Part shown: positions 25,301-28,632 of the stretch, piece by piece
How positions within the stretch are numbered: position 1 is the first letter of the stretch
Layout of the letters: each line of letters starts with the position of its first letter
Assembly: GCF_018598585.1 (NCBI RefSeq)
Contig: NZ_JAHESD010000029.1
Span: 1 to 61,471 of the forward strand
Origin: Chryseosolibacter indicum
GTDB lineage: Bacteria; Bacteroidota; Bacteroidia; Cytophagales; Cyclobacteriaceae
Direction of reading: 5' to 3'
Length of the DNA stretch: 61,471 nucleotides
The notes under the pieces: generated by a model
The model's input: only the letters and a program-made list of their open reading frames with translations
What the model was told of the DNA's origin: nothing
The model's database searches: none
Position numbers and translations under genes: made by a program

Positions 25301-25329
25301 AAAAACAGAAATAGGACATTGTCCCTATT
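25301..25329 (-). terminator. Terminator of the ECF41 / decarboxylase unit
   Basis: Read on the minus strand, AATAGGGAC (25329-25321) pairs with GTCCTATT (25317-25310; one bulged G) around AAT, followed by TCTGTTTTT. It lies 117 bases after the stop of the carboxymuconolactone decarboxylase gene. Confidence 0.6.
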
Positions 25330-25445
25330 ATTTATATCCCATGTAGTACACTACACCCAACCTTTAAAGATTAATAAAAGCTTGTCAACGCACTCAATTA
25401 GAAATGCGTTGAAGACCTTATTCAATTTAATGCTATATGAATACC

Positions 25446-25913
25446 TTACAAAGCATTAACTTTCTTCTTTACTTCATATTTTCCCGGAACTGTACCAAAT
25501 GATCTTACCAATCTATTCCACGAGTTTATCTGAATGATAGCCAATGTCAGCAATGCTATTTCACGTTTAGAAAAGTATTTTGACAATTCATTATGTATAT
25601 CATCGCTGTGTTCTTCAGCAGGCAGCCGGGTAAGTCTTTCAGCAAATGCCAGTACCGCTTGTTCCTTTGGAGTATAGTACGGTGTTTCACGCCAGGCAGA
25701 AACGGAAATTAATCTAAGTGCTGTTTCACCATGTGCCAACCCTTCTTTAAAGTGCATATCAAGGCAATAAGCACAACTGTTAATTTGAGACACACGCATT
25801 CTAATAAGCTCAAGAAGTGAAAAATCAAGACCAGCGTTATCAATGTACTCCTGCCCTGCCAAAAGACCGTTCAAAAACCCTTGTGGTAATTCTTTATATG
25901 AAATTCTTTCCAT
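25446..25913 (-). CDS. Carboxymuconolactone decarboxylase / AhpD-like protein, ECF41 target
   Basis: 155 residues with the AhpD-type redox motif SCAYCLDMH at about 47-55 (CxxC plus His), preceded by the conserved glutamate in LELIRMRVSQIN. The fold is all-alpha and usually trimeric or hexameric; members are alkylhydroperoxidases or decarboxylases, and the CxxC favours peroxide reduction. It lies directly downstream of an ECF41 sigma gene on the same strand. ECF41 sigma factors are known to drive an adjacent carboxymuconolactone decarboxylase, oxidoreductase or epimerase (COE) gene. The promoter seen at 25939-25965 fits this exactly, so I infer it is the sigma factor's target. Confidence 0.9.
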   Translation of the reverse strand: MERISYKELPQGFLNGLLAGQEYIDNAGLDFSLLELIRMRVSQINSCAYCLDMHFKEGLAHGETALRLISVSAWRETPYYTPKEQAVLAFAERLTRLPAEEHSDDIHNELSKYFSKREIALLTLAIIQINSWNRLVRSFGTVPGKYEVKKKVNAL

Positions 25914-25938
25914 AATATTTATTGATTTTTGCGCTAAA

Positions 25939-25965
25939 GACGAATGACCTGGAAAGAACGTGACA
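25939..25965 (-). promoter_or_regulatory. ECF41-type promoter
   Basis: On the minus strand TGTCACG (25965-25959) is followed by 16 bases and CGTC (25942-25939). The published ECF41 motif, as I remember it, is TGTCACA-N16-CGTC; only the seventh base of the -35 differs and the spacing is exact. It sits between the sigma gene's stop (25973) and the target's ATG (25913), giving a leader of about 17-20 bases. Confidence 0.85.
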
Positions 25966-25972
25966 AAAATTG

Positions 25973-26806
25973 CTAATCTTTTTTCAAATTGATCATCTTA
26001 TCTGGATTGCGTATATAAAAGATGTTTTCAAACTGTTGCTCGTAAAGCGAGAATATTTGTATTGCAACCAAGTCCCCTTCGTGGTAGTAAAAAAGAGCAG
26101 GTTGGTTGTTTAGCCAACGTAATTCGGTAAAAGCCTTATTAAAGGCTTTTTTATATAATCCAACAAGCAAACTCCTCACCGCCTTTACACCTCGTATCGG
26201 ATTTATAAATGCAGTTGCTTTTCCTCCCCCATCCGATACTACCGTAATCTCTGTTGCAAGCAGTTGTTCAAGTTCTTTCATATCACCATTCTGCAATGCT
26301 GACATATATCGTTGAATGGATGTGAGTTGTTGCTTGGCGTTTCTTGGAACGGAAGAGGTTTTAAGTTCACTTCGTGCACGACTCAAAATCTTTCGTGAGT
26401 TCTCAACGCTGATGCCGAGTACTTCTGCGATTTCTTCGTGGTCGTAGTCGAAAGCTTCTTTCAGGATAAATACAGCGCGCTGCTTGGTATCAAGCTTCTC
26501 AAGTAAAACCATGAGTGAATACGAAAGCACTTCTTTTCTGAAAACACTTGTCTCCGGGTCATCTGTAGCAACTGGCTCCGGAAGCCATTGCCCAGGGTAG
26601 TGACTACGCTCGCGTTGTTGTTTCCGTTTTTGGTCAATGGCTTTATTTATCACCATGCGAATAAGATACAACCTTTCATCGCGCACCTCTTCATGATTCA
26701 TCTGCATCATTTTGAGCAGTGCATCCTGTACAACATCTTTAGATTCTTCGTAAGAACCAAGAATATTGTAAGCGTACAAAATAAGAGAGGAACGTAGATC
26801 TTCCAT
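25973..26806 (-). CDS. ECF41-family RNA polymerase sigma factor with SnoaL-like C-terminal domain
   Basis: 277 residues. Sigma region 2 is at about 5-65 (YAYNILGSYEESKDVVQDALLK, then LYLIRMVINKAID) and region 4 at about 100-150 (LDTKQRAVFILKEAFDYDHEEIAEVLGISVENSRKILSRAR). A SnoaL-like domain of about 110 residues follows. The three ECF41 signatures are visible: WLPEP near 73-77, DGGGKA near 191-196 and NPDKM (usually NPDKL) near 267-271. In ECF41 the extension controls activity in place of an anti-sigma factor, and none is encoded here. The next gene is the expected target. The N-terminus is slightly shorter than usual. Confidence 0.92.
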   Translation of the reverse strand: MEDLRSSLILYAYNILGSYEESKDVVQDALLKMMQMNHEEVRDERLYLIRMVINKAIDQKRKQQRERSHYPGQWLPEPVATDDPETSVFRKEVLSYSLMVLLEKLDTKQRAVFILKEAFDYDHEEIAEVLGISVENSRKILSRARSELKTSSVPRNAKQQLTSIQRYMSALQNGDMKELEQLLATEITVVSDGGGKATAFINPIRGVKAVRSLLVGLYKKAFNKAFTELRWLNNQPALFYYHEGDLVAIQIFSLYEQQFENIFYIRNPDKMINLKKD

Positions 26807-26948
26807 ATAAGATATTAAGCTTACTACGGCAGCAAAGATATTCTACAGCCCCAGATAATAACAGAGCATTACAATTTTATTATACATGCGCTGTTAAGAT
26901 TGTTAACTGCTGTGCAATATATTGCGATTGCTTTATTTATAAACGGTT

Positions 26949-27413: not shown

Positions 27414-27525
27414 GCCATATACCCGGCAGCATAGATAACCACAGCATCCTTCAAATATTTAAAAAAATTATATTCTAAATAGGGGTAAACGCAAAGTGGC
27501 TTGTCATAAGCAAAAACAAATACAA

Positions 27526-28632
27526 ATGATTATGACTACCGCTTTTAAAACTAAGCTACTCTATAGAATATACATTGTAATTATTCTATGCATCTGTTCA
27601 ATTTATTCCTTTTCACAGGAGAAAGAACGTGGTGTTAATATTGGACTTTTCTATCCTGTGAGTGTTCAGGGTATGAGCTCAACGCAATATACCAACGTAT
27701 TCTCTATACACGCTTTTGCTGGATTATCCAAAGCCGAAAAAGGTTTTACAGCATCGGGCTTTGCAAATATTATAAGAGAAGATGCCTCTGGCTTTCAAAC
27801 CGCAGGCTTCTTAAATAAAATTGGAGGCAACGCTACCGGTTTTCAGTCCGCTGGATTTCTAAATATTATTGGCGGCAGCGCCGAAGGCTTTAAAGCTGCA
27901 GGCTTCCTTAATCTTTATCACAACGCTGATGGGTTTCAGGCCGCAGGTTTTAGCAACATCTCCGATGGAAACATAAGAGGTGCACAAATGTCTGGGTTCT
28001 TAAATCTCGCTAAACGAATGACTGGTTTCCAGGGCGCGGGATTTATGAATAAGGCGCACGATGTTAAAGGAACGCAACTTGCTGGTTTTATTAATATCGC
28101 TAAAAATGTAAGAGGATCACAAATTGCATTTATAAACATTGCTGATAGCAGTGAACATCCCATAGGTATTATTAACATTGTTAAGAATGGAGAAAAATAC
28201 ATTGGGGTAACTACTGATGAGATCTCTAATACTACATTGGCTTTCCGCTCCGGAAGCAAGACATTATATGGAATCATTGGTGTTGGTTATAATTTTGAAT
28301 ACGATGAAGACGCACTCGTATTGCAATATGGTATTGGTGCTAATCTGCTCAATTATCAGAATTTTCAACTTAAGACAGAAGCTACCACTACCATTCTTGA
28401 GAATTTTAAAAGAGGAGATTTCATGAAGGTTTCTTTAAACGTTATGCCCTCTATAAAACTTGGCAATAGGGTACAAATATTTGCAGGACCTTCATTAAAC
28501 TACGCAAACACAAATACCAATGAAGGTCGCAAACTTATTGATCACTACTTCTGGCATGATGCAAACAATAGCAAGAATCGCGATCATAAAATGTACATTG
28601 GGTATTCAGGAGGCGTTCATTTCGCGTTATAG
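27526..28632 (+). CDS. Exported protein with nine 16-residue GFQxAGFxN repeats and a C-terminal barrel-like part
   Basis: About 368 residues; ATGs at 27526 and 27532 are both possible starts, and an earlier in-frame GTG at 27496 is less likely. A signal peptide (YRIYIVIILCICSIYSFSQ) is followed by nine to ten tandem repeats of about 15-16 residues of the form G-(F/T/A)-Q-x-(A/S)-GF-x-N-(I/L/K) (nucleotides about 27742-28160), for example GFQTAGFLNKIGGNAT and GFQSAGFLNIIGGSAE. They should fold as a stacked beta solenoid. The last 150 residues look like outer-membrane strands (YGIIGVGYNFEYDEDALVLQYGIGANL). Similar repeats occur in LA_2272-type surface proteins. Function unknown; a surface display role is inferred. 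Confidence 0.7.
   Translation: MIMTTAFKTKLLYRIYIVIILCICSIYSFSQEKERGVNIGLFYPVSVQGMSSTQYTNVFSIHAFAGLSKAEKGFTASGFANIIREDASGFQTAGFLNKIGGNATGFQSAGFLNIIGGSAEGFKAAGFLNLYHNADGFQAAGFSNISDGNIRGAQMSGFLNLAKRMTGFQGAGFMNKAHDVKGTQLAGFINIAKNVRGSQIAFINIADSSEHPIGIINIVKNGEKYIGVTTDEISNTTLAFRSGSKTLYGIIGVGYNFEYDEDALVLQYGIGANLLNYQNFQLKTEATTTILENFKRGDFMKVSLNVMPSIKLGNRVQIFAGPSLNYANTNTNEGRKLIDHYFWHDANNSKNRDHKMYIGYSGGVHFAL

Follow-up and report, generated by a model that had tools for sequence, protein, structure and literature searches.

The window, by which we mean the whole 61,471-nucleotide stretch of Chryseosolibacter indicum DNA that was analysed, holds two genes in tandem on the minus strand, an ECF41-type sigma factor gene and, after a gap of ~60 bp, a gene for an AhpD-like CxxC protein. 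The sigma factor (25973..26806, minus strand; assigned from its ORF and family models) has 277 residues and consists of sigma2, a WLPEP linker, sigma4 and a putative SnoaL-like C-terminal extension. Its best NCBIfam profiles, both aligned over nearly the whole protein, are TIGR02957 (SigX4, 248 bits) and NF007214 (SigJ, 241 bits), scores that lie under the curated cut-offs of 323 and 271, respectively; a family search of 295 genomes returned no protein above the TIGR02957 cut-off. The best solved relative is Mycobacterium tuberculosis SigJ (5xe7; E 4e-28 over residues 2-220), with a likeness that takes in the first part of the extension and an Asp at the position of residue 58, and an alignment that ends 57 residues short of the end of the window protein. 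The extension itself scores 21.6 bits against SnoaL_2 (Pfam cut-off 27) and is followed by TIGR02957 to residue 274, compared with 220 for SigJ. Three short motifs, named as ECF41 signatures in the first-pass annotation, occur on the minus strand at residue 74 (WLPEP, in the linker, 26573..26587), residue 192 (DGGGK, in the extension, 26219..26233) and residue 267 (NPDK, close to the C-terminus, 25997..26008), and together with the SigX4 and SigJ models they uphold the ECF41 assignment made in that annotation. No anti-sigma family match was found beside the sigma gene when the neighbouring ORFs were searched with Pfam and NCBIfam profiles; the flanking genes encode a PhnA/YjdM protein and a protein with a weak bacterial PH-domain match (20.5 bits, cut-off 25).

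The target gene (25446..25913, minus strand) encodes a 155-residue protein of the CMD family, related to PA0269, as judged from its ORF, family models and relay residues. It scores 63.5 bits against Pfam CMD and 47.9 bits against TIGR00778 (ahpD_dom), the latter being the top of its five NCBIfam matches, among which there is no curated decarboxylase model. Among solved structures, the closest are 2ijc, 7xw1 and PA0269 (2o4d, E 2e-30), and Atu0492 (2gmy) is matched at E 6e-27. An AhpD-type relay, E35-x11-C47-x-Y49-C50-x3-H54, is encoded at 25752..25811 (minus strand), so that all five relay residues of PA0269 (E36, C48, Y50, C51 and H55), the Tyr included, are present in the window protein with a shift of one position; PA0269 has a weak, cysteine-dependent peroxidase activity (PMC3141380). 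Because the best NCBIfam model, the solved relatives and the relay residues are all AhpD-like, "decarboxylase" is a family label only, and we conclude from models and residues that the target is an AhpD-like protein of the PA0269 type. The first-pass annotation was thus right about an AhpD/CMD-type protein with a CxxC pair, and its use of "decarboxylase" for the same gene needs to be qualified. Across our whole locus set, 24 of the 32 CMD-like targets carry CxxC-x3-H and 14 the full E-x11-CxxC-x3-H.

Between the two genes lies the motif TGTCACG TTCTTTCCAGGTCATT CGTC (25939-25965, minus strand, 0 mismatches), found by pattern matching, in which the -35 element TGTCACG (25959..25965) is separated by 16 bases from the -10 element CGTC (25939..25942), the latter ending 25 nt before the target ATG. 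Relative to the published ECF41 consensus TGTCACA-N16-CGTC (PMC3426412) the spacing is identical and base 7 is changed from A to G, in agreement with the one-base difference and exact spacing described earlier. The first-pass annotation had proposed a genome-wide scan for this motif and had named many equal copies at random places as evidence against the unit. In the assembled genome (5,805,109 bases, 183 contigs, 99% complete) the exact pattern, allowing A or G at base 7, matched once, in the sigma-target gap, compared with six matches for the pattern read backwards; with up to one mismatch there were 39 matches against 125 for the reversed control, and the motif is therefore not over-represented elsewhere in the genome. 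The reversed control does imply some six such sites per genome, which is what a fortuitous match to a sequence that the sigma factor does not regulate would call for. The density of control matches puts the probability of an exact match on the correct strand within the 60-bp gap at about 2e-5; the only exact copy falls in precisely the predicted gap, and it is retained in orthologues, so we regard a chance origin of the motif as extremely improbable.

A locus scan found no strict ECF41 motif in front of the window sigma gene itself, and hence no feedback loop is visible. The earlier description of the unit as self-contained fits the target in this respect and does not extend to the sigma gene. 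Upstream of that gene, TATCTTTG (26833..26840, minus strand) is a weak candidate for a -7 element and also stands before the same-genus orthologue L041; we assume that it could correspond to the Bacteroidota housekeeping -7 element, for which we take TAnnTTTG as consensus. This consensus occurs in 14 of 62 loci lacking an ECF41 motif before the sigma gene, a number equalled in 13 of 200 letter-permuted controls, and a housekeeping promoter before sigma is at this point faintly indicated. Downstream of the target, the hairpin at 25301-25329 had been thought to close the unit, a role that we do not retain: it has a 5-bp stem, and when 2.9 kb were scanned with a simple terminator search, three sites came up, its core (25313..25325, minus strand, weak and terminator-like) among them, against 1.5 expected. 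An 11-pair hairpin from the hairpin search (25385..25412, minus strand) is nearer the stop codon and could be the transcript end, albeit with no clean U tract; either structure would make a weak terminator at best, and neither is convincing.

The cassette is readily compared with characterized members of its group. Like the ECF41 proteins Ecf41Bli, Ecf41Rsp and SigJ, the window protein combines sigma2-sigma4 with a C-terminal extension and the conserved motifs, and, as in that group, it has an adjoining CMD-family gene, a TGTCAC-type N16 CGTC promoter and no anti-sigma gene. The window differs in having G where the group has A at base 7, and in carrying its promoter before the target only, in the layout >ECF>>COE>. 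In the census of Wecke et al. 2012 this layout accounted for 53 of 373 proteins, with the promoter before COE in 24 and before ECF in 14 (PMC3426412). That census spanned 10 phyla and already included Bacteroidetes (2/373), so a Bacteroidota copy, which the first-pass annotation had thought worth singling out, is indeed present here and is not new (PMC3426412). Our literature search for ECF41 paired with "Bacteroidota" returned nothing, a search that publications using the older phylum name would escape. The adjoining CMD genes are the sole detectable ECF41 targets in Bacillus licheniformis and Rhodobacter sphaeroides, and partial truncation of the C-terminus of Ecf41Bli and Ecf41Rsp raises activity about 20-fold and 120-fold, respectively, whereas a protein stripped of the entire extension is inactive (PMC3426412). 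In a 2022 review, ECF41 is grouped with the ECFs whose control depends on the extension changing its conformation (PMC8999054).

The promoter code could be followed across phyla, as had been suggested. From 158 collected loci we removed two without a full-length sigma ORF and four duplicates, leaving 152 (93 Bacteroidota, 39 Actinomycetota and 20 Bacillota). The strict motif TGTCAC-N16..18-[CT]GT[CT], scored anywhere within each 2-7 kb locus, was found in 108 of these (64/93, 28/39 and 16/20, respectively) and was absent from 29 of the 93 Bacteroidota loci; with letter-permuted -35 boxes, 6.3 Bacteroidota loci on average and never more than 27 were matched, versus the 64 obtained with the real one. 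For 80 Bacteroidota matches, 72 of them in the 27-base form, a gene start could be named, the median distance to the start codon being 26 bases. Among 27-base forms, base 7 is G in 29/42 target promoters and 22/30 sigma promoters of Bacteroidota, and A in 16/16 Bacillota and 8/12 Actinomycetota forms assigned to a gene; the G of the window promoter is thus the usual base among the Bacteroidota loci studied. The layout of sigma gene, promoter and CMD gene recurs in two further loci of the genus (L041, L042) and in others of the family (L055, L051, L052 and more); a match at E 1e-54 or better was seen in 20/395 genomes phylum-wide and 12/395 class-wide, with the best six candidates per genome scored. 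Four loci that were returned by both sources show that this family also includes Chryseolinea serpens, Fulvivirga sp. M361, Roseivirga thermotolerans and Catalimonadaceae JC749, which places the window genome with the Cytophagales. In 31 of the 93 Bacteroidota loci the motif also precedes the sigma gene, and other genes would be driven. Two of our loci (L068, L125) have it before the sigma gene and before a downstream gene with family matches to FMN-dependent NADH-azoreductase, and four (L079, L080, L090, L126) look alike by eye, an arrangement unlike that of the window.

The tandem order, the 60-bp gap and the lack of any terminator-like site within it by the simple scan would also permit an arrangement in which most target transcripts come by read-through from the sigma promoter and the motif acts as a minor internal promoter. 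We consider this quite improbable, because the motif has the consensus spacing, is kept at the same place in relatives and has homologous counterparts that function in two other phyla (PMC3426412). Two further relationships were explored and discarded. Comparison of promoter base 7 (A or G) with the sigma residues gave a best column of 0.53 bits, a score that several unrelated columns reached as well. The C-terminal DP-K versus NP-K contrast, set against a promoter before sigma, gave 19/30 versus 8/56 (Fisher p 6e-6; 7 of the 93 rows, having no recognisable motif, left out), a contrast that we attribute to clade difference since only one supported independent pair stands behind it.

The window unit is, by family, motif and layout, an ordinary ECF41 cassette, and the earlier observation on sigma factor, promoter and target as a whole is confirmed. 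Most likely it works as an ECF41 switch that has a single target, an AhpD-like thiol enzyme, and does not regulate itself. The sigma factor would probably be made from an ordinary promoter, and its fused SnoaL-like domain would keep its activity low until a signal alters that domain, whereupon sigma and RNA polymerase would open the single TGTCACG-N16-CGTC promoter and an AhpD-like thiol peroxidase or disulfide adaptor would be produced. Since the promoter lies downstream of the sigma gene, no positive feedback would be built in. The family, the motif and its uniqueness in the genome, its conservation in relatives and the relay residues are read directly from the DNA; we infer that transcription starts at this motif, that the extension acts as a brake answering to a signal, and that the target is an active enzyme. 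That a one-target ECF41 cassette with a SnoaL-like brake drives its AhpD-like gene from this one promoter is, in our judgement, very likely.

Because 108 of the 152 ECF41 loci have the strict motif, variation in the sigma protein can be compared with variation in the promoter. The strongest signal came from residue 58 (codon 26633..26635, minus strand), the Asp of the DXXR motif (D58-Q-K-R61) in sigma region 2.4, which covaries with the first base of the -10 element across ECF41. In a first set of 107 loci this column had the highest mutual information of all sigma columns with that base (0.71 bits, next 0.46), the pairs, under a pattern that permitted only C or T there for full-length loci, being D-C 26, N-T 75, D-T 1, N-C 1, S-C 1, N-G 2 and T-G 1; the exceptions were L058 (D with T), L148 (N with C) and L077 (S with C). 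The rule that D goes with C and N with T was fixed in writing before any later loci were obtained. These comprised 26 plasmid loci, from Alphaproteobacteria, Burkholderiales, cyanobacteria, Actinomycetota and Bacillota, and 90 loci from 20 already-sampled actinobacterial genomes, and any first -10 base was permitted. A strict match near an ORF start was present in 19 of the 26 plasmid loci (D-C 17, N-T 2) and missing from the other seven, with two matches doubtfully placed (L250, L251) and the looser TGTCAT not counted. After exclusion of 18 loci that overlapped the first 152, two of them belonging to the 107, the fresh set held 98 loci (26 plasmid, 72 genomic), and 55 of these had a match, one being taken per locus by a choice blind to the -10 base. 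The resulting pairs were D-C 33, D-A 1, N-T 7, N-G 5 and N-A 1, plus eight loci with T, S, K or A at the residue, for which there is no rule. The strict rule therefore holds in 40 of 47 fresh D/N loci and misses N-G five times, N-A once and D-A once. In an amino/keto form, which was devised after the N-G cases had appeared, D is paired with C or A in 34/34 and N with T or G in 12/13 fresh loci (Fisher p 2.5e-10); the fresh C/T cases alone (33 and 7) give p 5e-8. Thus, the association between D58/N58 and the -10 base is strong.

Such a match could also arise through shared ancestry, if clades happened to differ in both residue and base with no contact between them. Many rows are related, and the first set offered only four supported independent pairs (three agree, none disagrees), a number that rose to seven in the combined set. 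On a tree of 162 loci built without the residue-58 column, the 152 D/N rows of the combined set imply 16 residue changes, and the seven supported pairs yield a mean of 5.9 agreements and no disagreement (median p 0.031, range 0.031-0.0625). In the fresh set alone, residue 58 is again the top of 152 columns (0.79 bits, next 0.60), and the window clade (D, CGTC) has close relatives with N and TGTY. Shared ancestry by itself is therefore an unlikely explanation, and the independence of the association from descent is moderately supported. The covariation in ~160 relatives suggests that one sigma residue sets one promoter letter: with Asp58 in DXXR the first -10 base is probably fixed as C, and in most relatives with Asn58 it is T or G. 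The pattern would be compatible with Asp serving as acceptor towards the amino bases (C, A) and Asn as donor towards the keto bases (T, G).

A general ECF promoter code has reportedly been set out by Todor et al. in 2020. A general residue-to-base code for ECF factors is in print, as described in PMC8103513, so the D/N rule may be part of it and would then amount to a confirmation; the terms ECF41 and residue are absent from the main text of PMC3817407. In Tt-RpoE1, as in the published ECF codes, the DXXR Asp in region 2.4 helps to read the -10 element, and there it is assigned to -12G, whereas in ECF41 the covariation is with the preceding base, C versus T/G, within one ECF group; changing -13C to T in the Tt-RpoE1 system lowers transcription and leaves binding unchanged (PMC3397946). 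These Tt-RpoE1 results count against the D58 rule. The account of the sigma-L structures leaves a C-G preference upstream of the -10 element unexplained, its authors proposing the last helix of sigma region 2 for it (PMC6372665). A third variant, GGTC, forms the -10 element in three actinobacterial ECF41 loci with an LCLN-type region 2.4 (L306, L309, L325), where it sits in a TGTCAC motif directly downstream of sigma.

Many genomes of the window family, the window genome among them, also encode a shortened relative that is missing the greater part of the SnoaL domain and matches TIGR02957 only to about position 194 of 281. In the window genome it lies at C106:100090-100668 (locus C106:100066-100733, represented by L044 and L222), scores 158 bits versus 71 for the best model outside SigX4/SigJ/SigI, and has no SnoaL match by profile search. 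We read 23 short-sigma loci, plus three more. In 17 of the 23, L044 counted, the short sigma gene stands directly before a fatty-acid desaturase gene whose product is at least 65% identical to that of L044; L208 has a distant desaturase, and five have none, including L207 at a contig edge. In each of these 17, TGTCAC...GTC lies between the two genes, with [CT]GTC in 15 and GGTC in two, and the three further loci agree, one of them with GGTC; no such motif was found at that place in L201, L204, L208, L214 or L216. In the window genome the desaturase promoter is TGTCACA-N15-TGTC, and TGTCACAAA-N13-TGTC occurs there once, at the sigma-desaturase site (control 0). The desaturase cassette was likewise noted at L043, L046, L200, L202, L203, L205, L206, L209-L213, L215, L217-L219, L221, L223 and L224. 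Measured from the first possible start, the short-sigma ORFs span 193-235 residues, many near 205, which is close to truncations 204 and 206, both more active than the full-length ECF41 sigma (PMC3426412). A literature search for an ECF sigma paired with a desaturase gave nothing among the matches listed. A quick tree, whose root is unsure because the outgroup is distant, joins the short sigmas in one clade (SH-aLRT 70) and sets them next to the full-length proteins (52), so that a position nested inside ECF41 is no more than a candidate reading.

We tentatively propose, as a reading that could well prove wrong, that two ECF41-lineage cassettes with a common layout coexist in the genome, one with a SnoaL brake, D58 and CGTC, the other with a brake-free short sigma regulated by its supply, Asn, TGTC and a desaturase, and that Asp or Asn sets C/A versus T/G across phyla. 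The idea that the -10 base alone insulates one cassette from the other was rejected as a general rule, because N with T can occur in both cassettes of other genera, as with L084 and L200 of genome G091. The window unit is one more ECF41 cassette and its value is comparative: it yields a testable one-residue rule and, in the full-length and shortened relatives within one cell, a natural experiment on the role of the SnoaL domain.

Some observations lie outside this comparison. Six short sigmas from another family of the class (L225-L230) have neither a desaturase nor a motif beside the sigma gene, L229 having one motif 605 nt downstream, and in L225 and L228 the upstream ORF resembles, by eye, a 4'-phosphopantetheinyl transferase. 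ECF41-like sigmas of a further family (L231-L235) have 273-297 residues and no NPDK in the last 60. In the window itself, 27496-28632 encodes repeated phenylalanine-rich units that match the VC2662 and LA_2272 surface-repeat models at scores below cut-off.
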